Below the pieces are notes generated by a model. It made no database searches. It saw nothing but the letters and a program-made list of their open reading frames with translations, and had not been told where the DNA came from. A stretch of 49,455 nt of DNA from Fragilaria crotonensis (taxonomy: Eukaryota; Bacillariophyta; Fragilariophyceae; Fragilariales; Fragilariaceae). Of this stretch, positions 32,501 through 49,455 are shown piece after piece. Within the stretch, counting starts at the first letter, position 1, and each line of letters opens with the position of its first letter. Position numbers and translations under genes: made by a program. Location: contig JAKSYS010000479.1 of the NCBI GenBank assembly GCA_022925895.1, positions 1 to 49,455 on the forward strand, in the 5' to 3' direction.

Positions 32501-33050
32501 ACTGTGCTCTGGTAGGAATGTCAGTGGAAAAACTTTTTTAATTTTGCTTTGTCCTTGATGCGGTTCTTGTTGTGAGTCGCCCTCGTTTCCTTGTCGTGTA
32601 CCACGTACAAGTACTACTTTTAAAGGAGGGATTTTGTGAGCGGCACATCACTAAAAGGACAAGATGATCTCACTTTTTTGTTGTGTCGATCACGACGTAT
32701 GTCATAGTATGTGGGAGAGTGGGAGAGTGCGAGAGCGGAAATAAAACTGAAGTATTCGGAGTAATTGTTTCGGATTATTAGCGCAAGGTGGCCAAATCTA
32801 CACGTATATATACATGAATATATTTATATAGGATAGAGGCCCTTCCTGACATCATATGCATCTACGCACACATAACGTCAGCGTGGTATGCATACCAGGT
32901 ACCAGGTACAATACTGTTCTCCCAACTCCCGCCGGAAGTCGTGCCGCTGCCATCTCGTGTCCTCGCGAACTCAAGAACTCCCCCCTCCGAATCTATGACA
33001 CAAGGTTCAAATACCAGGGTAACAAGGCCATTCTCCGTTCTCCATTCACT
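29505..33050. other. ORF-poor block, 3.5 kb
   Basis: No intact gene is seen. The first 400 bp are the 3' flank of the acidic protein gene. CTACCGGTAGGTT occurs at 29919 and again, in the same orientation, at 32442. A GGA tract lies at 30402-30417. Between about 30300 and 32350 short frames in all phases read like worn-out coding sequence, but I cannot name a source. The stretch from 32590 to 33050 contains GTAC-rich sequence and probably the promoter of the next gene. Confidence 0.5.
30402..30417 (+). repeat. GGA trinucleotide tract
   Basis: Five consecutive GAG/GGA units. The serine-rich frames seen opposite it are a by-product of this repeat. Confidence 0.8.
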
Positions 33051-34262
33051 ATGCAATCAAAATCACACGACAATGACGGCGACGATACAACACAAGCAGC
33101 TGAGATGGCATGGCCGTCAATAACTGATCGACTTGCCTCTTCAATCCTGTCTTTGGATGTGAATTTCCAGAACCTCCAAGATGTGGAAACCAATCTGCGC
33201 GCACGCTCGAAGAAGCAGTCGTCATTTCTGGTGTTTCTCATTAATGGTATTGCAACGATGCTCATTGTATTGTTCTACTTGATATCAATCGAATCCTTGC
33301 TTGGGATCACACTGTGTGTCACCCTGACGATCTTTACATACCAACAAATCCAAGCGGAAACAGATTACAACGGGAATATCATGAACTGGACCTTGCTCTC
33401 CTTTGCGATTGTGATTCCAATGTCATCGTCCATCAGCATGGCCTTTACCAGACGAGAAAAGGCTCTGACTAGTATTGCTGCACTTCGGTCTTTACTGTTC
33501 TCGATATACCAAGCTCATGCCTCGTGGGATTGGGGCACTTCCCTCCCCACGGGGCGGACCCAATCCAAGGTGGATTGGTTGCAGCATTCGGACGACGTTT
33601 TAAAAGACATCATGGCAATGAGTCACGATCTCACTCGGTATTTGACCATGCCGTCAACATCGAGGGCCAGACATCGCATCATGCCCCTTGAGAAGAGGCA
33701 AGCGCACCAGGGCCGCGAGTTTGGAGATCAACTCATGAATGCTGTCCTTACCCGTGTGGACCGCATCTCACTTTATTGTGAAATATTGAAACTTGAAGGT
33801 TTGCCAGGGAATGAGGCTGCACGCATCAGACAATGGGAACGAGAAGTTGTGCTACAGATTGAAACGTTGCAGGTTATCAAGGAATATAGAACCCCGCAGG
33901 CATTGAGAAGCTTGTGCCGCCTCTTCTCCGTTTTCCTGCCGCCATACTACGCACCCTTCTATGCGCAAATGGCGGTTGATCTCAACTCTCTTGAGATGGC
34001 TATTGCGTTTTCAATTTTGACCAGTTTTGCCTTGACGGCCTTGTTCGAATCGTTGACGCAAATGGAAGATCCCTTTCTTGCTCAGATTACGTTGGATGGA
34101 ATAGATGTGCCACGAGAGCTGCAACAGCTCCAATACAAGCGTCTGATGTCACAACGCAATGCAGTCTTTTTCAGCAAAGCAAACGAGTCGGTGAATGGAC
34201 TTCCGAGCGAACACTCGAATCTCGAAACTAGTCAAAGCCTACGTATCTTCGGTGAATACTAA
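33051..34262 (+). CDS. Multi-pass membrane protein of unknown function
   Basis: A single-exon frame of 403 aa from the ATG of MQSKSHDNDGDD. An upstream in-frame stretch to 32856 is open but GTAC-rich and unlike protein. Two closely spaced membrane helices (FLVFLINGIATMLIVLFYLI and LLGITLCVTLTIFTY) are followed by a third (WTLLSFAIVIPMSSSISMAF), a hydrophilic helical middle part and a C-terminal membrane pair. The C-terminal signature YRTPQALRSLCRLFSVFLPP, then ALFESLTQMEDPFLAQITLDGIDV, is a pattern I associate with a conserved eukaryotic algal and fungal membrane family of unknown function. A bestrophin-like chloride channel is a weak alternative. It converges on the Kir gene with only 35 bp between stop codons. 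Confidence 0.75.
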   Translation: MQSKSHDNDGDDTTQAAEMAWPSITDRLASSILSLDVNFQNLQDVETNLRARSKKQSSFLVFLINGIATMLIVLFYLISIESLLGITLCVTLTIFTYQQIQAETDYNGNIMNWTLLSFAIVIPMSSSISMAFTRREKALTSIAALRSLLFSIYQAHASWDWGTSLPTGRTQSKVDWLQHSDDVLKDIMAMSHDLTRYLTMPSTSRARHRIMPLEKRQAHQGREFGDQLMNAVLTRVDRISLYCEILKLEGLPGNEAARIRQWEREVVLQIETLQVIKEYRTPQALRSLCRLFSVFLPPYYAPFYAQMAVDLNSLEMAIAFSILTSFALTALFESLTQMEDPFLAQITLDGIDVPRELQQLQYKRLMSQRNAVFFSKANESVNGLPSEHSNLETSQSLRIFGEY

Positions 34263-34297
34263 ACATACGTATCCTACATTTGTTTCTTTTGACTCAC

Positions 34298-36625
34298 TCA
34301 GAGAACGTAGATATCTGAGTTGCTCAGACGACGACCTGTACTCAAATCTTCGCCACCTCCGCCAGCCTGCTCCGTCACGTCATTGATGACTGCCAAATCT
34401 ACCTTGACTCTTCTGCTGTGGTCATCATCTGCGTACATCATGGTCACAAAGACATAGCCAACGCTGACAGACTCAAAGTCGTACACCTTTTGCGCATACA
34501 CATTGTTGGCGTCGGCATTGGACGTGCCAGCGAAACTCACCAAAATTTGATCAAAGTTAAGACAGGCGCGCACACATTGGGCGTCATTGAATTCTCGGGG
34601 CCAAAATCCATGGTTGAGGCGAATTGCTTCTTTCGCGTCATCCGCCAAAATAGGAGATTCACAATCCAACGTGTGCCGCACTGTCCATACACGCTTGAAA
34701 AAGGGGTGATCCGGAGTTTCGACCTCGAGTTTCGAGAATACTCGTTTGGAAGCAATCTTGCCATAAGGGTCTTCTTCAAATGGTAGTTCTGAACGGTTGG
34801 CTTGCTCAACCACGCGGCTTGCCAGGTGCTTCAATTTATTCTTTTCTGACTCACTCAGAGGGTTTTGTCGATAGGAATCATCCACGATGGACCGTTCGAT
34901 TCGATGGCCGACGGCCTTGCCCTTGCGACGCCGACGGCGCTTCGATCGTGACCGCAATAGGCTTTCGGCCCTGGATCCATCTATCGAGGCAACAATATTC
35001 AAAGTGCAGTCCATGATCTCTCCCCCGGTGATGGCGTGCATTTGATTCGCGATGCGAAACTCCAGCACTGGGCAGGGAAGTTCCGTTAGATTAGTGCTCG
35101 CGTTTGTCGAACTATCGCTGGCACTCTTGGCACTGCGATCATCTGCAATGTCTGCGTCCTCCACCAAGACACCTTGTCCATACCGAACCACCAACGGATC
35201 AGAGAACTCCACCTGTGCGATGCTTCTCACACGTGCGACTTTTCCGAACATAATGGCGCCACAAAAACTTCCAAAGAGGACTCCGACAAAAGCTTCGAGT
35301 GCGCAAAGAAAGATAATAGGAGCGCATTGGCCTTGATTTTGTAATTGCTTCGATGTTGTCGGGTAAGTCAAACCGTAGCCCTGGGGCACAAGGAATCGTG
35401 TTAGAAATTTGAAAGAAATGCAACGGTGTATACAAGCAGCCGATCAAAGCAATGGCATACCACTGTAGCAAAGTTGGTCCACGACAGTTGAAAAGCATCA
35501 CCGAAATCTTGGAATGTAGACGAATCTGTGGCGTTTCCAAAAAATACTCCATTGACATATATACATTCGGGTCCAATTCGGCCACTCCAAAGAAGAAGAA
35601 GTGCGAAGAAAAGTATACCTCCAAAAAATCCCAGGGCAGCGGAAAAGAAGACTGTTAGGAAAGATTGACGGAAAGTCCAATGCAAATAGCGCGTAACGTA
35701 AGTGTTGGGTTCAAAGCCACAGCAGGAGCACTGTTGATCATTCCCACTTGAATCATCGTATATCACAGCATCTGAACCCTGAATGCCTAAAACACCTAAA
35801 ACGCTAGTCGTCAAGGTGTTTGTGGGTTTGCGGTTGGATAATCGAAACTGTGTTGTTTCGTACTCTTTGTGTTCGCCTGCTTCAGTCTCATTGCCCTCTC
35901 CTTCATCATTGCCCATAAAGAGTTTTGAGGGCACGCTTTGCATGCGCACACTGCGTGATAGCACTTCGAGTCGCCCATGCTGCGACTGGAGTTGTGAATC
36001 GTTGGCGTATGCTCCACTCCATGATTGCCTTCGCCCCAGATGTGTTTTGGTCTGGGATTGTCGTCGTAATAACGGTGCAACATTGTCCGAGAGAAATCGT
36101 TTGACGTATTGACTTCGTCTCTGAAACCTCTCCATCGGTTGACAATCGTATGCCGGTCGAACCTTGAGGATGAGAAAGTGGTTATGAACGGTGAGTTTGG
36201 AGGGACGGAGAATTCTTAAGCGCAAAAACTTCAACAATATTGCGACGAATTGTCTCTACGCTCAACCCTCAATGGACAGCTGCAGTCATACGTCATGCAT
36301 CGTGGGCTATGCTGCTTCCCAGCAAATGCCAGTAACGCGTTCGTATCGTGACGTACCTGAGCATAGAATTCTCTGCAGACAATTGAACTCGGTTTCTCGA
36401 CTTCCTCAATGTCAGCATGATCAACGGCCAATGAATCGTCATGCGGTGTCTTGGGATGCTTAGTCCTCCTTCGAAACAAGAGCGCGGATGATCCTCGAGA
36501 TGCAGTGACATCTCCGTCCGAAATGTTGCTACCTGTTCCACTCAATTCGTGATCTTCTGGGATGAAAAAACATGGAACCAAGGCTACTGGTAGAGTTTTC
36601 ACGACGACTGCCCGAACGTGAGGCC
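34298..36625 (-). CDS. Kir-type (inward-rectifier-like) potassium channel, 5' end cut off by a transposon
   Basis: Exons are 36625-36357, 36228-35461 and 35380-34298, with introns of 128 and 80 nt. TM1 (FLTVFFSAALGFFGGILFFA) leads to a pore helix (AFQLSWTNFATV). Splicing at 35461/35380 completes the K+ filter TVGYG. TM2 (IFLCALEAFVGVLFGSFCGA) and the Kir-type cytoplasmic beta domain follow (VEFSDPLVVRYG, LEFRIANQMHAI). A basic KRRRRRKGK stretch may bind phospholipid. The start codon is lost: the target duplication GGCCTCACG at 36625-36617 is the second half of ATGGCCTCACG, whose AT lies beyond the inserted element at 37834-37833. A run of six Ts (36570-36565, - strand) also shifts the frame by plus one. 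Counting both, the ancestral product is 706 aa. Confidence 0.85.
36617..36625. repeat. 9-bp target-site duplication, Kir-proximal copy
   Basis: CGTGAGGCC here is repeated perfectly at 37824-37832, directly outside the two inverted repeats. Confidence 0.9.
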
Positions 36626-37823
36626 GATAAAGCTTAACGTCTAGATATTTCGATCTATTTAGAATCTACATCGAAGATAAAAGTAACCCTTCCCGAACAG
36701 ATGATTATAACGTCATGTGAACGTCATCGATACGAACCCCTCGGTTCACTTAAAATCTCATTCCATGTGCATCGATTAGTCCAAATATGTCATACTTGGG
36801 GTACTTTGACTTCTACGTTGGTGCTTTTGAATCATTTGTTCGTTTTAGCCGCGCCCAAATCCGAAGTTGAAACCAACGGAAGGTCTGGTATACACCTACG
36901 CAGGTAAGTAGAAACGGTAGACGATGTACCTGAATGCATTTGGAACGCCAAATGCACAATATCATCACAAAATTCCACAATTCAAACTTGGACAATGGAC
37001 CCTCCACTGCAGACAATCTGCTTGTAATATCTCTGTAGTTCTCCTTCTTTTTTTACTCTCCAATCTGTGTCTTTAGCACATGTACCAATTGTAGTCAGTA
37101 GTAGAGACAATAGGAGTGAACATGTCTGTTTTTGATTGACTTTCAAAGCATTGTTTGAGAAGGGCCTCATGACAAAGAAAGCTCACCGGCGTACCGGTAT
37201 CGTGATACCGCCACTGTAGTAGTGGAATCGAGTACGCGGAGCACTTCAGTATTGTAGTGTGCAGTATAAAATCTCGACTGTGCCGCTGGAGCACTCAGAG
37301 TACTGGGATGCACGTAGAATCTACGATGAATTCCGAACTATCGTTGTTCGAATTTTATACTCGCGGGGATGTCCTATGTACCAGTAGTACCAACGCTAAC
37401 AGCAACTCGTAGACTTTCAGTATTAAACCGTTGTAGGTTTGTCTCCAAGAAAAATGGGGATGCTCGATTTTGGATGGAACTTTCGTGTTGTACATGGGTA
37501 TCGTACTTGTACCTCGTGCGCGGAGTACTACTAGCTAGCACAACCCACTGGAGGCACAACACATGTTTCAACTGTTGTGGTACCTGGTATTCATCAATTC
37601 ATCACATGTGATCATCGGATGTGGTGTAACCAAAATTTGGCAACCGTGCCAGCGCGCACTTGCGAACACCCCTTTCAACTAGCACTCTGATTGGTGAACG
37701 AACAAAGCTGATGACGTCCATGGGGCTGAAGGACAAATGAAGATGAATGTATACAAAAGTATATACTTTTATCTTCGATATAGATTCTAAATAGATCGAA
37801 ATATCTAGACGTTAAGCTTTCTC
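36626..37823. mobile_element. MULE-like non-autonomous DNA transposon, 1.2 kb
   Basis: Inverted repeats of about 60 bp bound the element: left 36626-36685, starting GATAAAGCTTAACGTCTAG, and right 37764-37823, the complement starting GAGAAAGCTTAACGTCTAG. They differ at only a couple of positions. Perfect 9-bp direct repeats lie directly outside. Long TIRs with 9-bp duplications are the hallmark of the Mutator (MULE) superfamily. The interior has no frame above about 80 codons and no transposase signature, so the element depends on an enzyme made elsewhere. GTAC-rich sequence occurs inside it (37190-37620). Confidence 0.88.
37764..37823 (-). repeat. Right terminal inverted repeat of the MULE-like element
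   Basis: It is the complement of 36626-36685, almost base for base across about 60 bp (AAATAGATCGAAATATCTAG is shared exactly). Confidence 0.88.
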
Positions 37824-37834
37824 CGTGAGGCCAT
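37824..37834 (-). pseudogene. Orphaned start codon of the Kir gene
   Basis: On the - strand ATGGCCTCACG is the original start of the channel. Reading on, it runs into the transposon end and stops after nine codons at the TAG inside the inverted repeat. It now forms only a tiny upstream frame. Confidence 0.8.
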
Positions 37835-38466
37835 GTTGGACGCCACCCAATTCTTTCACCGCCTCTCACGGAATAGGCGAGGATGGACGTATTGCTCACT
37901 CAGTGACGATAATTGCAGGGTTCGCGTTCAGTACTCTTGATTCCATTCAGGTGACTGCGTCCATGTGTCATTTGTAACAATGATGTACTGGTACGACTAC
38001 GCCGAGTATTTGTTTTTTGGCTTGTTTGTGTGGAATCAAGTAAAACCTAATACTGGCTGCTCATTGCCGAAGGGCCAACGTATCATTATGCGAGCGTACT
38101 AATAGGACCGATGTCACGATATCATGAAGTGGTATTTACGGCATCATCGAATCTGGAGGATCCGCGCTTCGCACTGCCCTGTCCACTACACTCAGAGTAC
38201 ATATGCGACGCTACAACAACAAATCAATTATTGTTCAAATCAGGGACAAGCAATATAAATCCAAAATGTCATAGCACCGAATCAGGCACATGACTTCTTG
38301 ATGTGAAAAACGATACACTTGGATCAATACTGAATATCCGGAATACATTTCTAATTACTATATATTTGGATGTACTTCTTTAGGTGAAAATGACATTCTA
38401 AAAATCTGTCCGTTTTCATATTTATGGCCAATGACAAAAACCGAAGAATTTTGACTGACGCTTGTA
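37835..38466. other. Original 5' flank of the Kir gene up to the next transposon
   Basis: This stretch lies directly upstream (- strand) of the orphaned Kir start and so should contain the ancestral promoter and 5' UTR of the channel. It contains no coding region I can support. Confidence 0.5.
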
Positions 38467-38486
38467 CAGCTGGTTACGCAATCAAG
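38467..38486 (+). repeat. Left terminal inverted repeat of the 3.6-kb element
   Basis: It pairs with 42045-42064 (17 of 20 positions) and is preceded by TA. Confidence 0.72.
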
Positions 38487-38697
38487 GATCTTGAAGTAGG
38501 CCGCAGTAATAATTGTACATGAGCATATTCTTTCGCATGTAGATACCGTGAAACGACGTCACGAATCCAAATACTTTACTCGGTCGCAACGAGGGCTTCG
38601 ACCATGATATTTGTCACAACACTGCAGATCACACTTGCGTAATTGGCCTGACTGACGCTGAAAAAGGGCTTGGTGATTGCCTTCAGTATCCAGCCAT

Positions 38698-41600
38698 ATG
38701 AACGAGTCAGTCCAATTCAAGAGTTCTGGCTATAAATTTGCTATTATTCGGAGTGCCTTCGTTAAGATCTGTGCTGACGAAATGTTTCGTCGAAGGGTGT
38801 GGAAGAAGTGGCTACCGGCAGAGACTTGGGCCGAAGCCCTGAGAGCATCTGGTCTCATTGATGCAGATGTGCATTTGATTGATGTCAAGAGTTTCAATGC
38901 GGCAATGATTCGAAGCAAATTGGATTTTAATGGGCATTTGATGGAAAGATTTGACGGCACAAATAATTCTGGAATATTCCGAGTGACCTTTCAGAGGAAG
39001 TGGTACTACTTGGTTACGGATCCAAATACACAAGTTGCCTATCCAAGTCCGCTTGATACAAATTGGAAGGAGAGAGTGCACTTGAATGCAAACAATGTGC
39101 TCGCCACACAGTCAACCCGGTCATCAGTAAGAGCCCCAGCATCCTGTCGCTGCTTTCATTTCACGACAACAATACAAGTGACGTGACACATCCTGAGACA
39201 ACTTCAAACAAACGTCAGCGCACCGGTAGCATCCAGGAAGTGGTGGATAGTTTAGGTACTGATGCCATTGTGGTCGACGAATCGGTTCATTTTCAGGCTG
39301 ACAGGTTTTCCTACTGGGATAGTCGGGAAGCATACAATTTGTTCAGGGCAAAACGCTCGCGCGTTTGGAGAAGTTGAGGGACACAACACTAAAGACACAT
39401 TGGAGCATCACATCAAGATTTTAAAGTCAGTGAGCGAAGATCAGAATGGGTGGAGAAATGTTGTTGAGGGTAGAGACCCGATAATCTTTGCACAGCATTA
39501 GATATCTTCATGCTCCGAGGTCGAGCCATAATTCTGTGTTTCGCATACCAAACTGCCATTGCACAAATGAATAAATGGACCTGGCAGCAGTGTTGTACCA
39601 AGGCATGCGAACAACTAAATCAGCTTGATTGGTACAAGCAACACATCGTAGGACCGTTCAAGATTGGAATGTTGAGTTTCGGAAACGAGGAACATTTTAC
39701 ATCCCAATCATATCGTTCGATGCGGAAAAAGGCCTTTGCCTCTCTTATTTTTAAGATTCCCGAAAGCGGAAGAAAAGATTACTGCTTTTGGATTAAGCAA
39801 TTTAACAACATTGACGGTGGAATTGGTGCATTCGTTCTGCCTGGAAAAGCTAATACCAGAACTATTTAAACAATGGTGTGACGACATGGAACAGTGCCGC
39901 ATTGAAGAAGGTACTACCGATAGATTGAATCATGAGCCATTAAGTCAAGAAATGTTTCTGCTTGAACATGGAATCCGAAATTTTAGTATACCGACATGCT
40001 GGCGATGGCTGCATCGATTAGGGTTTTCGTATAACACACAAAAGAAAGGATATTATGTGGACGGTCATGAACGAAGCGATGTCATCGCATGTCGGGAGCA
40101 GTTTTGTAGTGACTATCTAACCAAGCTCGAACCGAGGTGTCTAAGATGGGTGCAATTCACTGCAAGCGAATTAGCGACAACGAGGAATTCTATTTTGAAC
40201 CCAGCCTTTGGCCATAGCTACATTGACAGCGAGGGTGAGATGTGTTATGAATTCCATGTCGATTATTGCTACAGCTTTGATACCGCAAATGATGGCAATG
40301 GCATAATGGATGGGAAAGTTCCTTCGATGAGCATTCGTGCCCCAAAGCCTTCCAGGCCGATTGAAATCTACGGCCAAGATGAAAGCGTGTTTTCAAAATC
40401 TTTTCCCGCCAAAGAGTTGGGTTGGTCCAAATCAGCAGCGAGGACTTATGCCAAAATCGCTGGGAGAGGGACTGATGATCTCCGCGTTTGTTTCTCGAGA
40501 TACGGGTTCGGCATGCCAATCAGTGATGAGAATCTGGCAGCCATCAATGAAATCCGTCATGGCAAGGAGTATATCGACAAGACCGCAGCACTTGAAGTCT
40601 ACAAGTGTACTCGAAAGCCGCCTCTGACACAATCGCCATTTGTTCGACATTTACTGATTGGAGCAACAAAAGGCGGCTATTGGAACAGCTTTCACATGGC
40701 TATTCAGCTCGAAGATGCTGTTGATTGCTTGCAATACTTACGCCCACAGTTCGATTTTGTTTTTTTTATTCGACCATAGCCAAGGTCACGCTCGGAAGAA
40801 GGATGGGGCACTCGATGCAAATAGCATGTCTCGTAGTTTTGGAGGAGTGCAACCAAAAATGCGATGCTCCACAATAGAAGCTGGTTGTCTCGGTCCCTTT
40901 CCAAGCATTTTGAACATTGGCGATGAGCAATCAATGGCCTTCAAGGATGGCGACCGTGGTCCTTGGTGGTTTGTCTCAAACGAGCTTTGCGACAAACGAA
41001 AACATGATACTCCAGACACTGGTGGTCGTTCAAAATTGTACAACGAACTCGAATCGAACTTGCTAAAGCCCTCTTTGAGGAGGCCGGTATAACAGTTGAA
41101 TCGAATCGCCCATTGAATGAGCTCAAGGAAATATCAAGTCGGCATGGTTTAAGTCTCACATGCCAAAATTCTTCATCACCGAGGGCTGGGTTGGGAAGCC
41201 AAAGGATTACTTCAAGTCTTGTGGGAGCGAGGTTGGATTGACAAATCTCAGTGCAAGGAATCGACTGACAAGGAAGGATACAAGATATTGAACACATCAT
41301 GCTATACACTTAATGGGAAGAAAAATCCCATCACCGGAATTCTTGACGAGTCAATGTCACTTCGCAATGCAATTGCAAAGTGCTCGGACTTCATGCAAGA
41401 GGAAACGGCATTGCAGTACCTGGGATCTCAACTAGGATTAAGAGTGATGCTTACACCGAAGTTTCACTGTGAGTTTGCCGGCGAAGGGATTGAGTATAAC
41501 TGGGCTCATGCGAAGGCAAAAATGCGAAGGACTCCTATTCGTGAAAAAAAGGCGAGCCAATTTCATGAATCTTGTCATGAAGTGCTTATGTCCTGAATCT

Positions 41601-41891
41601 GTACTGACAAAAGAACGGATAAGGAAGTTCGCATCAAGAGCACGTGCATACATTTGCACATATTACTACCTTTCACAAGTTGAAGGTGGGAACAACAGAA
41701 CCGACAATCGCAACAATTCTCATGGCGATGCTCCTCCTGGTGACGTTGCTTGTTGTGTTCCTGAAAAACAGCAGCTTCTCTTCAAGGAGATTGAAAAGCT
41801 GATGAAACATTTCAGGACACATCGGTGTGCATTAGATTTTGATACTCGCTTTGTGCTGGCGGCGTTGAGGGAGGAGGAGGAGGCTATCTGA
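38698..41891 (+). pseudogene. DDE transposase of about 1,060 aa, multiply frameshifted
   Basis: Long conserved stretches follow one another in changing frames: an N-terminal half with a zinc-finger-like CKQCARH segment (39090), a helical DNA-binding middle part (WRWLHRLGFSYNTQKKGYYV, 39997-40056), and the catalytic core. The core has D at 40378-40380 (YGQDESVF), D at 40772-40774 (LFDHSQGH) and E at 41492-41494 (EGIEYNWAHAK). The LFDHSQGH and TPKFHCEF...EYNWAHAK wording matches a family of large Tc1/IS630-related transposases known from fungi and algae. Frame changes include T8 at 40760-40767 and an A run near 41546-41552; at least seven are needed in all. As written it cannot be translated to a full protein. 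Confidence 0.75.
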
Positions 41892-42538: not shown

Positions 42539-43520
42539 ATGGAATCCGCGATGGCATCATCTGCAGCTCTCAACAAAGAGAACACCTGTCCACCATCAGG
42601 ACAAACACAAGAGAAGAGGAGCAGTGTTGTCGTCGGTTCGACTAAAAAGAAATTTCCGGAAGGGGAGCGTTATGAATTGCTGTTGATGGACATCGTCGAC
42701 AAAAATAATGCTCATATCCCGCCAAAGAATGGGATCAGCAAGTGTTGGGGTCAGGTTGTTGCTGACTTCAATGCAACTACAGGGCCAAGTGTTTACAAGT
42801 TTAGCGACTGGCGTCCTTTTCAGAGGAAGTACATTGGTATTCGCTCCCTTGCCGCACAGCCAGTTTCAGGAATCTGTTGCAAATGGTACCGCAAACGAAG
42901 ATGAACCCAGTGAAACCATGAGCAGGGTATACGGTATTGCGAACGATCACGCATTGGAAGAAGCTGATGCAAAGGATGCTGAGGTTGCTGCAAAAATGAT
43001 GGCAGAGCACGATGCCACAAAGCAAGTTGCGGAGGGGCGGGCACTGCGTCTGAAGAGTGCAAGTAGCATCGTTGCAGGTGAGGCAGTACAAGTTGGTGGA
43101 CCGATGATGGTGCTTGGCGACAACGGTGAGGTTGTCAAATTTGGATCCGAAGACGACTCAGCTCCAGCTCAAGTCATGGTGACACCAGCCGCAAACAAGA
43201 TCAACAAGAAGCGAAGAAACGTTGATAATTCTGCTGTTGGTGCCTCGAGCAATAAGGCATTGTGCCGTGACCTCATTGATTCTCTGACCAAAACACGACA
43301 GGGGAATGCTGAAATTGAGGCCAAGCGATTTGATTTTGAAAAGCAGATGGCTGAGAAACGTTTTGAGAAGGAAAAAGAAGATAGCCATCGCCAGCACGAG
43401 ATACAGCTTCGTAGTATGGACCTCCAAAAAATGCAGTGGGAAATGCAGATGGCAGAAATGAAGATCAGGATGGCCGAGCTTGAACGAGGAGGTCGTGGGA
43501 AGGAGGATAGCAGCAAGTAG
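42539..43520 (+). CDS. Harbinger accessory protein, Myb/SANT-like (one frame break)
   Basis: PIF/Harbinger elements carry a second gene whose Myb/SANT-like product helps bring the transposase to DNA and into the nucleus. Here the N-terminal half has KKKFPEGERYELLLMDIVDK followed by KCWGQVVADFN, a trihelix/SANT-type pattern. A linker with basic KINKKRRN and a long C-terminal coiled coil (EKQMAEKRFEKEKEDSHRQH, then MQMAEMKIRMAELERGG) follow. The frame shifts by plus one at CCC 42846-42848; ignoring one C gives 326 aa with continuous wording. The ATG at 42539 is chosen because the frame upstream opens only with a GTG. It converges on the transposase gene. Confidence 0.75.
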
Positions 43521-43920
43521 CCAGCAAGGTCATTCTCTGGGGCGGGGGACGAGTTCAAATTACTAGATTAATACTACTAATGGTGTCGTAGTATTGCAAA
43601 AGATACTGTATCACGTAGCATGGTATCGTCCGCTTATTAGTGAGTGCTGTTATCGACCACCACCATACTAGGATGACCTTGTTCGTTTGTGTTACTCAGC
43701 ATCGCAAACTTTTCCATGTATTTTGTTTAAAAGTGCTTCGTTCTTCGTACTGCGAGGTGCCTGGTCAAGTTCGCAACACCCCGCCAGCATTTTTTGAGCG
43801 CTCCTTGAGACGACCAGCTTTCCCCGATCACTTCGTCGGTGACCCGACTAGTAGTCAGTTCTGTTGGTCAATGCCATTTCTCGAGATATGGGATGCACTG
43901 CCGAAAAGGACAGAGGCACG
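43521..43920. other. Harbinger interior without a recognised gene
   Basis: About 400 bp lie between the accessory gene and the SufD fragment. An open frame covers 43640-44047 and contains PPAFFERSLRRPAFPDHF, but I do not recognise it. It could be more captured host sequence or chance. Confidence 0.4.
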
Positions 43921-44572
43921 GCGTGTCAACGCATTGGTGGCAGCGGTCGTGTGCGCATCGCCATGTCGGTATCGTTGCTTCGTCCTGGATGCTTTGCCTC
44001 CGTCAAGGGCTTTAGTTTATCGGGTGGAGCGCAACGTACGGATATGAAGACCAACATTCACCACATTGCACGTGCGACGAGTTCAGAGCAATAGCAAAAG
44101 AGCATGGTGGGGGGCCGTGCCACGGGTGCCTTTCGCGGTCGGATCCGTGTCGAACAGAGTGCCCAACAGACAGCGAGCAATCAATTGTCGCGAACTATTT
44201 TCTTGTCGGATCGCTGTCGGGCGTGGACGGCACCGACGTTGGAAATTATTGCCGACGACGATGTGCAGTGCACTCATGGAGCGACCGTGTCAGATTTGAG
44301 TGAAGAAGAACTATTTTACCTCCGTTCTCGTCGATTGGACCTTGCGACAGCGCGGAACATGCTCATGTATGCGTATGCGGGAGACAATTGCCAATCTGGT
44401 GTGACGACGCACCGAGTGATTCTATTTTGGACTTTGTCCATGTCGCGAGTAAACGTCGTCACCTTGTCCAAGCGTCTCAAATCAAGGAGGATGACGTCGC
44501 GACATTCGCCACTGGTACACCACTTCACGATCGTCCGGCTATCATGACTACAATTCCAGAGTCGTTCTGAGG
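43921..44572 (+). pseudogene. sufD: Captured fragment of SufD (Fe-S cluster scaffold protein)
   Basis: SufD works with SufB and SufC to build iron-sulphur clusters, in diatoms in the plastid. The frame from about 43940 to 44400 reads through typical SufD wording: VRIAMSVSLL, GFSLSGGAQRTDMKTNIHH, GGRATGAFRGRIRVEQSAQQ, then the C-terminal signature EIIADDDVQCTHGATVSDLS and EELFYLRSRRLDLATARNML. Only the C-terminal half to two thirds is present; the N-terminal region is absent. A single in-frame TAG at 44092-44094 replaces a leucine-type codon, and the frame is lost after 44400, where a shifted frame continues to 44570. It lies wholly inside the Harbinger ends, so capture by the transposon is the simplest reading. 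Confidence 0.85.
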
Positions 44573-44629
44573 TACTCTTCAAGTGTTGGTGGTGGTAGCT
44601 CGAAGTACTCGGAGATTTGGTTGCCGCCT

Positions 44630-45841
44630 CTAACACAAGTTACAACATTTGTAAGCCAGAATGCACCGTGCCACATTGCTTCCATTCGCACCATTTCCAT
44701 TCTCATTTGTTTTGAAGTCGACGTATGCCCAATGTCGAACTACCTTCTCGTATCCCCATTCAACGCAGGTTCGCATAGGACTGTATGTAGCGTTGAAAGC
44801 CTGTCTGTCCCGTGTCAGTTCTCGTCCTGGTAGCTTTTTGAACATAGATAACGTCCAGTTTGTTGTTGGGTAGGCCGAATCAGCCAATTTTCTGTAGTTA
44901 CATGCGATTGGATGGTTCCGCCAGAAGTTTTCCAGATTGGAATGACGGAAGATATAGCCATCGCCTCGTCTGCCATCATAGGCGCGAACACAACTGATAC
45001 CTAAACCATCTGGCCCTTCTAAAGTCTGGAACTTGAGACCATGACCTTTTTTATGTCGATCATACTGTGACCCTTGAAAATGTGTGGGTCGGCAACTCAT
45101 AAGTTTTTTCGCATCAATCACTGCGACGATTCTGAGCTCAGCATCTGCACCCTTCCGTACAAAGCACTCCATATATTGGTCATATCGCTCCTGCTTCAGA
45201 GGATAGAAAACAACCTTTGGGCCGACCCTTGAAACAATCAAATGAAGCATCAGCCCAAATATTCTTGATAGTGCACTTGTAGATCGTCCGAACTCTTTGT
45301 GCAGATCACACCACCGGTTCGGGTAACAGAGCCTTCTACAGAAAATTGCATATGCTTCCAGTAGATGAACTCTGTCTCTTTTGTGGGTGATGATTATATC
45401 AGGAAAAGGCAACAAACACACAGTCCTTTTCATTTCTTCTTGGTCGAATCGAAATGCCGCCCGACAATCTGATTGACTCAATCTGTTCAAATCCACACGA
45501 ACATCCGGGATGATAGGCATATCCATGTGCCGGAATACACTCATGTTGCTTCCTAATCCCAGGAGCATCAATGCAACCAAATGACCAAGACAGAATTCAT
45601 TGTTGTCACATTCAACATAGAATTGCAGAAATGACATCACTAGTGGGATGTCGCGGGTCCTGATAACTCTGTTGTTGCCGCGGAAACCCAGAAGACAAAT
45701 CACCGGCACTGCGACTGCCACTGAAGATTTGTCTTCTTCCATGCAGAGAGCAAGAAGTGAAGAAAAGACAGCACACGCCGAAGTTTCTCTCTCCCATGGG
45801 CCGCTTGTGTCGATGTCATTCCAACCTGTTGCAGTCGCCAT
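44630..45841 (-). CDS. PIF/Harbinger transposase (DDE_4-type nuclease), intact
   Basis: This is the cut-and-paste enzyme of the element: 403 aa from the ATG at 45841, or 415 from an in-frame ATG at 45877. The N-terminal region has the family's recognition part (LLEAYAIFCRRLCYPNRWCD, then FGRSTSALSRIFGLMLHLI). The catalytic residues are D at 45115-45113 (VIDAKKL), D at 44881-44879 (LADSAYP) and E at 44761-44759 (CVEWGYE). The intervening HGLKFQTLEGPDGL and YDGRRGDGY segments are typical. A C-terminal VDFKTN segment and ARCILAYKCCNLC end match the family's end. There is no stop or frame break, so this copy could still be active. Confidence 0.88.
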   Translation of the reverse strand: MATATGWNDIDTSGPWERETSACAVFSSLLALCMEEDKSSVAVAVPVICLLGFRGNNRVIRTRDIPLVMSFLQFYVECDNNEFCLGHLVALMLLGLGSNMSVFRHMDMPIIPDVRVDLNRLSQSDCRAAFRFDQEEMKRTVCLLPFPDIIITHKRDRVHLLEAYAIFCRRLCYPNRWCDLHKEFGRSTSALSRIFGLMLHLIVSRVGPKVVFYPLKQERYDQYMECFVRKGADAELRIVAVIDAKKLMSCRPTHFQGSQYDRHKKGHGLKFQTLEGPDGLGISCVRAYDGRRGDGYIFRHSNLENFWRNHPIACNYRKLADSAYPTTNWTLSMFKKLPGRELTRDRQAFNATYSPMRTCVEWGYEKVVRHWAYVDFKTNENGNGANGSNVARCILAYKCCNLC

Positions 45842-46045
45842 CGTAAGAGTTATATACTCACCACTTTGTATCGGCATCTACAACTCCCGTACTACAATAG
45901 CAGGTACTTGCACTTTGCAACAGTACTTTCATATTTTGGTGCGCGCGACGAAACGTTTTTGCTTAACCGAACTTTGCAAGGGTCCTAACCTTTATAACTC
46001 GAACTTCTGAGTGCCGGAGCGCGCAATCCGGTACTCGACAGATGC

Positions 46046-46090
46046 TAAGGTTGCGCGCGCACAAGTTTTCAAGATTTGCTTAAAGTCCCT
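46046..46090 (-). repeat. Right terminal inverted repeat of the Harbinger element
   Basis: It is the inverse of 42166-42210, perfect over the outer 16 bp and imperfect inwards, with AAT directly outside. Confidence 0.85.
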
Positions 46091-46093
46091 AAT

Positions 46094-49000
46094 AGAACTA
46101 CTCGAGTACGTCATACGGTTTAAAAAGGAAAGAATCGTCGACACCACATGCCGCATGCCGGTATGCCCTATGCGCATATGCCCAGCCAGCCACAATTAAA
46201 ACTTTTTAGCTAATAGTGGCCCCGCCCGAATGTTAGAAGTGGCTTGATAGTTGTCACGTGCCAGCGTACACCAAAATCACTACTACAGTAGGAGCTGCGG
46301 GTACAAGCAGTCTACCGTAGTAGCTACCGGTAGTCGTAGTACAGGAAAGCGACATGGATTGAAGAATCCTTGTGAAATGCTTGGCATGCAAAATGCCTTC
46401 CAACGAAAAGTTTGTGAGACCAGTTCAGCAATAATTCTTCTCCTGGTTTACATTGGAGAAGTTACACTCAACAGTTGATGTCCCTAGGAATGCAGTTGCT
46501 AAGCCTCCACAGAACTTGTTCTATAGGTGCTTGCTGAATCTGTCCATAACATAGCCCCAATCTTGTTTGAATTTCATCCATGCATCACACAGGTCCAGGA
46601 CCTGCTTAAAGGCAAGCGTGCGCTCATAGTATGCTGAGCAAAAGGAATCTAGTCGGAAGTCAAGTCCCTTGAGCTCTACATGTTGCAGGCTCCAAGCTTG
46701 CCAACAATCAGTCAAACTGGTGAAGTTGTACAACATTTGCAAATTAAGTCTGCCAGCAATGCACCGAATGCTGAAGAAGCATGTGTTGGATGTAGACATC
46801 ACCTTGAAAGGGTCTCCAAAAGTACTGCATTTTCTCTGCAGCCCTGCATTTGACACCAATCTTCACATCACGACCGAAATGTAAAGAAAATCGGCAGGAA
46901 ACCAAAACTAGTACTGCTGCCTGTGATGTGTTGGGTGCATCTTGCTCAGCCAGATACTGTAAGGCCATGTGTAATGACAAGGCTATCATTGAATATCGCC
47001 GTCCACTTGATTGGGGTCATTGTCTTGGAATATGTAGTAATGTGAACGCATGCAAATCCGCCGTAGTATAGAGCGAGTCTACGTAAAAAATCCTTAAATA
47101 GTGGCTAATAGTGGTTATTCCCACCAAACGCCACTATTAAAGTGGCCTGCCTACGCCCTGAGCCCCTGAGCCCTAAGCCCTGTATGCTTATGTCTGTCAT
47201 TGTTCGCTCACCTCCACACTCCACCGTGGCATAGTTGACATCATCTACTCGACAGCGTTGGTGCTCCTGGAACAAAACTGCAGTAATACATCGTACCATT
47301 GATTGAGTGGGTGCAGCGTACTATGTTCATTTGTGTATAGTTGTTTGGGACCGGTAGTTTAAAGGAATGGAAGATGTAATCAAGAAGAGTGATACAAAAT
47401 GCTGGCTGATGATTGAAGTAAAAAATAAATACACATACTCAAAGATATGGTTATGATTTCTGTGAGTCTAAAAAATCAGGAGTGACATTGCAATATCACC
47501 CAAACATTTGTCCACAATACAAGAGTAATCACCACTGACTTACAACAATTGTAGAATGTCAATTTTTCCATTTCACCTTAATAAAATGCCACGGACAATA
47601 TCATCCAAATTGTTGCGACAATATTGCAATATCACCAACTGGCTGATTAGCATTTCATTACTATATTACACATTTTGGGCCTTTCAGTGCTGGCCAGCAT
47701 GCCACTGGCTACTACTATTTCATGGAGACAGTGGTACCCTCCTCCTGTACATTAGCTAGCAATCACCAAAACTCACCAACAGCCTCCTTTCAACATAGCC
47801 ATTATCTCGTTACCTTCATCATGCACAACTTTGCCTCCAAGCTATTGCATCAAGATAACAAGTGCTTGAAGAACCAACATTTGCAGTGGTCATTATCATG
47901 TTTGGCAGTTTTATATTTCTCTTTCAATCACCAAAGTAGGATGCATCCAAATGATATGATGTTTGATATTTGAATGTAGATCTGACAGTATTGTACACAA
48001 AAATAAGTACGACAGTTCCAGATGACCGCAGGATTTTTAGATTACTTTGTTCCCAAAATCCTGTGGTCTCATAATGGCTGAGCTCTACTAGCATGAGCTT
48101 AAGCGAGTCGGTCACATTGCTTGCTTTCTGATGCCTTCATCTTGTCTCTGGCTGTTGCTGTGATCGAAATCCCACGGTCTGGAAAATCCTTCTTGACATT
48201 TTGGGATGATTCGTTCCAGGAATCCCGCAGTGTTTTTGTATTGCTTCCTTTTGACCGTGTAGTACCTACCATTTGGAATAAAATCATACAATCTTTCATG
48301 GCAGAGATTTGCACCTTTCTTCCAATATTGTAAGGGTGTTTTTGGATTCATTAACAATGCTACAATCAGTGGTGCTTGTTTGGATCAAAGAATTCAAAAC
48401 TTTTTATGAACCATCCAACATTGACCAAGATTGCCACAACCGCCATCCATAGTATGGACACACTTTCACATGCATGCTGCAGGAATGTTGTTTGTGAGCA
48501 ATTCTTGGTTTAACCAATTAACACAGTGTGCTCTTGTGGCAAAGACTCAAACAGCATCTGAAGTGATTGGCATGACAGGTCTCAAAGCATTCTTTAGTCA
48601 AGTGACTTTCACCTTGAAGGCAAAGTCAATTTCCAAACCCTGCTGAAGGTACTAATACCTATTCAAGCTGTCATGGTAGTATTGGTATGGTGGTGACCGT
48701 GAGAAGCTCTAGGGACTGTGAACGCCATGCAGACAGCGCAATCGTCGATGGCGTCCACGTGAGTTGTGATGGGGTGCTGTGAAAGTGGAGATGGAGTTTG
48801 GAAGAGTCAACGTTGGTGGCGTCACAGATGCGGACACCAGCCAACCCTGCCGGGAGGAATTGACAAAAAGTATTGTGACCACATCCTATTCAGGGTAAGT
48901 GAGTGAATGGGATGAATGAATGGCAAAGTACGTTTGGGCGCCTGAAAGTACGCTGGCATTGGATGATCCATGTTTTGAGGAGGAGACATGTGCAAGCAAT

Positions 49001-49227
49001 GTGTCGGTCTGACAAGAGCGAGAAAGCAGTGCGCTTTCCTGCTCTTCTTCAAATGGGATGCATGAAGTGATGAAAATGGACATTAGGATTAAGGAAAAAT
49101 GAAGCCTAGTACTACTTTGTCCTCTGAGCAGTTCATAATGTAATTCTTGGTGGTTAGCAGGCCAATGGTGCTGGCTGACAATGTCTCAAGGGACATTTGA
49201 GGTATTCCAGTTGGTGCAAAGAACTGA
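46094..49227. other. ORF-poor block to the right of the transposon cluster
   Basis: No intact gene can be supported over 3.1 kb. GCTAATAGTGG occurs at about 46208 and 47103, and GCCACTATTAAAGTGGC near 47130 can fold into a hairpin; together these may mark a small unrecognised element. A 112-codon frame on the - strand (46859-46521) and shorter overlapping frames near 48100-48360 (-) look faintly protein-like but match nothing I know. TTGCAATATCACC is repeated at about 47489 and 47626. Confidence 0.45.
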
Positions 49228-49455
49228 CAGGCTTACTCAGCTCAGGATGGATCACTAGCAAGCCTTGACATGCACGCCAACACTAAACCTGAGCCCAAAA
49301 CAGGAGCCAACAGAATCCGCAAGTGCCTCATCGCAATCCACACCTTCACCCGCCAACTCTGGCTCGCCAGGAACGCAGTTCTCCACGACGACACCGAAGC
49401 CACAACCACGGCTATAGCTCGCACAGCAGAACAGATCGAGTCAGCTACTACCACC
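49228..49455 (+). CDS. Partial coding frame at the window edge, possibly retroelement-derived
   Basis: An open frame of 76 codons follows a TGA and runs off the window. It reads IRKCLIAIHTFTRQLWLARN followed by AVLHDDTE. A tryptophan-centred helix of the form LWxxRNxxLHxD is common near the C-terminus of LINE-type reverse transcriptase polyproteins, so a retroelement tail is a reasonable guess. The composition (GC-rich, Ala/Thr-rich) differs from the preceding 3 kb. Without the rest of the gene the call stays tentative. Confidence 0.4.

Follow-up and report, generated by a model that had tools for sequence, protein, structure and literature searches.

The locus examined here raises the question of how the start codon of a potassium channel gene in a diatom came to lie far from the exon it belongs to, and whether the event was peculiar to this gene. 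The window, that is, the whole stretch of DNA that was analysed, is the complete contig C424 (49,455 bases) of an assembly of 62 Mb in 881 contigs. The earlier note had described a 1,198-bp insert bounded by repeats of about 60 bp and a perfect 9-bp duplication, and this description was confirmed: the inverted repeats of the element at 36626-37823 are 60 nt long and 97% complementary, and both copies of the 9-bp duplication read CGTGAGGCC and are identical. The duplicated bases correspond to positions +3 to +11 of the channel coding sequence. Direct reading of the sequence also verified that the distal ATG opens a frame of only nine codons (ATG GCC TCA CGG AGA AAG CTT AAC GTC), with TAG coming next, within the repeat. 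The exon-1 frame, for its part, runs into a stop where the repeat ends (TAA in CGTTAAGCTTTATC). As for the lost start codon, what stands is that the ATG has been split off and lies about 1.2 kb away; a loss of function would be the consequence deduced from this arrangement. The features of the locus are collected in Table 1.

Table 1. Positions in the window of the inserted element and of the channel gene that it interrupts
Feature	Position	Strand	Remarks
Non-autonomous MULE-type element (putative)	36626..37823	.	1,198 bp; longest frame opened by an ATG has 80 codons
Terminal inverted repeat	36626..36685	+	starts GATAAAGCTTAACG
Terminal inverted repeat	37764..37823	-	starts GAGAAAGCTTAACG on minus strand
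9-bp target-site duplication, channel-proximal	36617..36625	.	flank reading
9-bp target-site duplication, promoter-side, with G of ATG	37824..37832	.	flank reading
Original start codon of the channel, separated from coding exon	37832..37834	-	uninterrupted in C185, conserved in paralog
Channel exon 1, remainder	36357..36625	-	CAG at end, then GTACGT
Six-T run (AAAAAA on +)	36565..36570	-	C185 has five T; paralog with five-T frame
Met19, at which a shortened channel might start	36571..36573	-	in frame with five T only; conserved in paralog
Channel exon 2	35461..36162	-	702 nt
Channel exon 3	34298..35380	-	1,083 nt; filter GYG, post-pore stretch, Kir C-terminal domain, stop

The original gene structure can be recovered by joining the flanks with one copy of the duplication, which gives ATGGCCTCACG followed by 260 nt; the total of 271 nt ends at a GT splice donor. 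As assembled, the exon-1 frame fails past the six-T run (MASRSGSRRENSTSSLGSMFFHPRR... and then a stop), while with five T, as found on a second contig, C185, exon 1 reads MASRSGSRRENSTSSLGSMFFIPEDHELSG... and is open to its end. The five-T run of C185 carries little weight by itself, because all the gaps between the two contigs in the channel region fall in C185; the five-T frame is favoured because a paralog of the channel (C185:73686-76027; L041) keeps the same frame: its ATG is identical, and its run (MASRSGSRHDNTSFGSMFYIPEEHELSG...) is equivalent in frame. Thus, the two proposals of the earlier note on this point, namely an exon 1 of 90 codons that starts with this ATG and is in phase, and a six-T run needing correction, are both borne out by C185, which reads through, and by the conservation of start and frame in the paralog. 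As a predicted gene model, the ATG and the 90-codon exon 1 are right.

The paralog and the channel are 87%, 82%, and 77% identical at the DNA level in three segments, and the dN/dS between them is 0.26 for exon 2 and 0.21 for exon 3; the coding body of the channel has therefore evolved under purifying selection. The description of the product as a Kir-type channel with intact pore, filter, and cytoplasmic domain also held: exons 2 and 3 are open, the TVGYG filter spans the exon 2/3 junction in the spliced protein, and a profile search of the PDB supports the presence of the T-x-GYG filter (TVGYG), the pore, and the Kir C-terminal domain. In this search, a four-sequence profile made from the channels of the genome found KirBac3.1 (E 2.1e-10), Kir7.1 (E 4.7e-7), and Kir2.2 (E about 2e-5). 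The channel protein alone gave weak matches in the PDB, KirBac3.1 and Kir7.1 included, and no match in Pfam at E 0.001; two channel paralogs match the IRK models of Pfam, below the cut-off. Single-sequence structure prediction of exon 3 gave a mean pLDDT of 34.6. We regard the putative Kir label as sound on the basis of the profile and the filter. A literature search on diatom inward rectifiers gave nothing useful among the matches listed. Tail to tail with the channel lies a 470-codon, membrane-looking open frame (window 32850-34262, plus strand); the two stop codons are about 35 bp apart, and Pfam gave nothing for this frame up to E 0.1.

The contig C185 also provides the counterpart lacking the element. 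With the joined flanks as the query, all 1,193 bases were found at C185:55860-57048 at 100% identity (as rounded by the tool), the element being absent; when this stretch was aligned between the window and C185, one substitution and three short gaps were seen. In the longer alignments, positions 33932 to 36625 contain one substitution and gaps of 1-3 bases, all in C185, and positions 37824 to 41146 contain six substitutions and gaps of 1-2 bases on either side, which makes 7 substitutions in about 6 kb. Such a pattern looks more like assembly error than divergence. Probes taken from the window at 8, 16, 24, 31, 45, and 48.5 kb are collinear on C185 at 98-100% identity, that is, six of seven probes are in order across about 40 kb; the remaining probe, taken at 1 kb, is unplaced on C185 and maps elsewhere. 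Between about 8 and 24 kb of the window, the probe intervals are 8.0 kb against 4.7 kb on C185 and 8.0 kb against 11.5 kb, and therefore further large insertions or deletions separate the two contigs. The simplest reading is that the two contigs may represent alleles. The earlier note had pointed to the homologous haplotype and had counted the lack of any empty-site allele against its own reading; the empty-site counterpart exists. Because this uninterrupted counterpart is colinear over about 40 kb, the insertion is judged to be young and is probably heterozygous. An uninterrupted channel copy is probably still present in the organism, because the insertion is found in one of two near-identical contigs.

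The element belongs to a family that is spread over the genome. Among the candidates scored in a DNA search, at least 13 further near-full-length copies and at least 20 copies of a sister subfamily (73-74% identity) were found, and the terminal repeats are conserved across the two subfamilies. Other copies of the repeat, for which the earlier note had suggested a search, occur genome-wide: the 30-base repeat core has 95 sites, which by hand count from the list make up 47 facing pairs and one single, and it has 0 sites in a reversed-pattern control. Because of this contrast and of the near-identical copies, a chance origin is excluded, and the insertion at the Kir site is real. Thirty-eight family loci were examined for their ends and flanking duplications. 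Of these, 33 have a duplication close to 9 bp in length, which is perfect in 32; those scored as 10-11 bp overlap the element end by one or two bases. A clear duplication is absent in four loci (L003, L007, L049, and L012, the last at a contig end) and the repeat pair in one (L017), and these were left out of the 33 analysable insertions, among which no pair shares its flanks (0 pairs). When divergence is counted as substitutions, with gaps set aside, the 13 further copies are 97.9-100% identical to the Kir-site copy: the copy on C263 shows 0 substitutions in 1,191 aligned columns, and the 12 others show 0.2-2.1%. An empty partner contig was found for at least five of 14 other family sites, or 6 of 15 when the Kir site is counted (40 of 268 candidates scored). 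Judged from its copies, the family has moved recently.

Two longer elements, found on C80 and C353 by the repeat-core search, provide the candidate source of the transposase. They are 5.5 kb long, 99.8% identical over 5,536 columns, and inserted at different sites; both are flanked by a perfect 9-bp duplication, and each contains a long open frame (1,038 or 1,036 codons). With the short element they have only the ends in common, about 290 bp at one end aligning at 74% and about 95 bp at the other at 86%. The 1,038-codon protein matched the ZSWIM1-3 RNaseH-like model at E 4.9e-4, below the curated cut-off, and the three relatives scanned (about 30% identity) all matched PF10551 (MULE) at E 3.7e-4 to 3.9e-3, again below the curated cut-offs. 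In these relatives, PF10551 and the ZSWIM-RNaseH model lie over one stretch and SWIM comes after it (E 0.005-0.008 in all three), all being below cut-off. Accordingly, neither the 1,038-codon protein nor its relatives gave a Pfam match above the curated cut-offs, and the 1,038-codon protein had no relevant match among the PDB sequences. In an alignment of five transposase sequences, D326, D392, and E504 are invariant, as are the SWIM residues C622/C624/C634/H636 (CxC..CxH); a CX2CX4HX4C stretch was also recognised by eye in the transposase. We take the family to be MULE, and the MULE-like label given earlier agrees with the prevalence of 9-bp duplications in the family and with the MULE-type transposase predicted in the longer elements with matching ends. 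That a C80/C353-like transposase may mobilise the short element in trans is something we infer, because the long elements share their ends alone with it. PF10551 has 91 matches in the genome, none of which was seen by eye to overlap the family of the Kir-site element; therefore, other MULEs are also present.

Several composite loci were observed in the course of this survey. A long MULE relative on C183 (L059, 60850-68900), 98% identical to the C80 element, contains an interruption of about 1.8 kb; its frame is in two parts, and no matching duplication flanks its ends. A sister-subfamily copy on C384 (L060, 750-8800) is split by about 6.2 kb, which contains a reverse-transcriptase-like frame with YVDD (RVT_1 at E 0.031). 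The 3.6-kb transposase-bearing inserts in two other copies (L018 and L016) had been candidates for the autonomous partner and were rejected, as they are nested elements with their own ends (TATGGC..GTTTC; L016 suggests a duplication of about 3 bp). They belong to a very abundant DDE-like transposase family, a relic of which lies at 38677-41891 (plus strand) of the window; the family has 982 first-look candidates in the genome, 70 of them scored, and its motifs, recognised by eye, are GQDESVF, FDHSQGH, and PKFHAEL..IEY.W. The scanned parts of this transposase gave nothing below E 0.01 in Pfam, PDB, and NCBIfam, and the nested transposase had no match with viral contigs. Apart from mobile elements, the silicon-transporter family has 19 matches in the genome, 18 of them above the cut-off, with a top score of 646 bits, and on this ground the host is regarded as a diatom. 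Three of its domains lie in an apparent single open frame of 1,456 codons (C97:29749-33762) and two in one of 1,008 codons (C771:21664-24330); these frames look like fused silicon transporters.

The landing sites of the family were then characterised. The flanks of the 33 insertions were joined by a script, and ATG-initiated ORFs, that is, ATG-to-stop frames without introns or gene annotation, were sought around the insertion point. The control consisted of about 2,450 points from the window (1-36400 and 43001-49455) and from three 9-kb stretches picked blind to content; the control points overlap, and the p-values are therefore indicative. The loci L058-L062 and the pairs on C12, C351, C560, and C647 are outside this test. 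The Kir insertion (L001) is included in the 33, yet it was not scored as a start hit because the sixth T breaks its frame. With ORFs of at least 600 nt, 15 of the 33 insertions fall 0-200 bp upstream of an ATG against 2.5 expected (p 3.7e-9), and with a threshold of 300 nt the figures are 22 of 33 against 6.2 (p 2.6e-9). The control rate for the 600-nt upstream bin ranges from 0.04 to 0.14 by stretch, and at the top rate the expectation would be 4.6 of 33. The bias is seen in each subfamily (7 of 14 against 1.0 expected, and 8 of 19 against 1.4). The thresholds tried were 240, 300, 450, and 600 nt with 50 to 300 bp; all lean in the same direction, most strongly at 450-600 nt with 200 bp, but significance is not reached in every setting: p lies between 0.04 and 0.22 for the 50-bp windows and is 0.13 when 240 nt is combined with 300 bp. 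The idea that the insertions sit in coding exons was rejected: the ORF over the insertion point has a median of 330 nt against 420 nt in the control (p 0.195). The duplications follow the pattern SW-N5-WS, with the outer S in 51 of 66 positions (p 4.9e-7) and the second W in 49 of 66 (p 3.3e-4); the Kir-site duplication has the S and lacks the W. The extra SW/WS flanking the duplication of Mu was not seen in the family sites. As far as the insertion sites tell, the family shows a Mu-like preference for the 200 bp that precede start codons.

This preference could also be produced if insertions occurred everywhere and those in coding sequences were purged. Within ORFs of 600 nt or more, insertions are indeed strongly depleted (5 of 33, where 16.1 were expected), as such survivorship requires; however, it also predicts a similar excess beyond the stop codons, where none was found (1 of 33 against 2.7 expected). 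Moreover, when points outside ORFs alone are taken, 11 of 28 are start-proximal against 8.8% in the control, and the bins adjoining the -200 to 0 bin are at about or below background, so that we consider purging an unlikely source of the excess. A broader reading, which we hold with moderate confidence, is that a currently active diatom MULE family directs its insertions to the 0-200 bp ahead of start codons, much in the way of maize Mu and with a shared core duplication pattern; promoter-directed integration would then be old in MULE transposases and not a plant speciality, and the two haplotypes of this diatom would differ at many gene starts. At the Kir site itself, the window contig and C185 might be recently duplicated loci, with the insertion fixed in one duplicate. 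Two of the probe intervals are unequal and the 1-kb probe maps elsewhere, and the second channel paralog carried by C185 means that duplication has occurred here. Nevertheless, transposon polymorphism would likewise give unequal intervals, the remaining probes are in order at 98-100% with the few substitutions given above, and five other family sites each have one listed empty partner contig, as expected in a partly phased diploid assembly. Fixation in a recent duplicate is thus quite improbable in our estimation. Equally small is the chance that the interrupted copy was a pseudogene before the insertion or has become one since, in which case the sixth T would be a genuine frameshift. The run does break the frame as assembled, but the frame stays open through exons 2 and 3, for which the low dN/dS values were noted above, and the differences between the contigs in the channel region are one substitution and otherwise gaps of 1-3 bases, typical of assembly errors.

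Very probably, then, the locus records a recent cut-and-paste insertion of a non-autonomous MULE into the first codons of a Kir gene, in one of two homologous copies. In the mechanism that we propose, a C80/C353-like transposase would bind the conserved repeat ends and move the short element in trans. Integration would occur where the chromatin of the promoter or 5′-UTR is open, as for maize Mu, which would be the simplest account of the start preference. At this gene, a 9-bp staggered cut would have been made at +3 to +11 of the channel, slightly beyond the preferred region and into the coding sequence. The promoter would now drive the nine-codon frame, leaving the exon body without an in-frame upstream start. 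If the run has five T, Met19 might start a channel that is 18 residues shorter; if it has six, the copy would be broken twice. The insertion may thus silence or shorten the product of its gene copy. MULE ends can carry promoters, and it is conceivable that the element supplies a promoter or a 5′ exon and that the copy is still expressed from Met19, which is conserved in the channel paralog, or via an upstream exon. Against this, if the six-T run is taken as assembled, Met19 reads 14 codons and then a stop, the exon-1 frame is closed at the repeat end, and the start-proximal copies are in mixed orientation to the gene (by eye), so that no selection for an outward promoter is visible. We therefore doubt continued expression of this kind, and retain the insertion as a candidate for silencing or shortening.

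An insertion of this kind is ordinary for an active MULE, a class that is known, and diatom MULEs as such are already known (PMC6446971). What raises the interest is the family-wide start-codon-proximal preference in a diatom; among the matches listed in a literature search, the titles and abstract openings report no start-site targeting by a diatom MULE. The start-codon insertion, which one contig carries and its counterpart lacks, is a candidate natural allele-specific knockout, and the family may serve as a non-plant system for testing promoter-directed transposition and as a candidate insertional mutagen for diatoms. The channel resembles the Kir and KirBac channels in its GYG filter, pore, and C-terminal domain, as judged by the four-sequence profile, and is unlike them in that Pfam, at the thresholds applied, gives no match for the diatom channel itself. 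Compared by description, the element family shares the stramenopile host and a SWIM-bearing transposase with the MULE-Diatoms, lineage 37 in PMC6446971; these have repeats of 123-124 bp and a duplication that is given there as none or left unstated, in contrast to the 60-bp repeats and 9-bp duplication here. In rice and maize, Pack-MULE insertions are most frequent immediately ahead of transcription starts and fall sharply in gene bodies (PMC7337890), and the present family is likewise enriched upstream of starts and depleted in gene bodies; unlike them, a captured host gene fragment was not identified in it in a non-systematic look. The closest parallel in behaviour is with maize Mu/MuDR, which strongly prefers the region 5′ of ATGs and has the duplication pattern SW::SWNNNNNWS::WS (PMC2774946). 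The two differ in host and in repeat length (60 bp here and about 215 bp in Mu), and the likeness concerns ends, duplications, and targeting: both have 9-bp duplications, end repeats common to their members, the SW-N5-WS pattern, and the preference for sites 5′ of ATGs.
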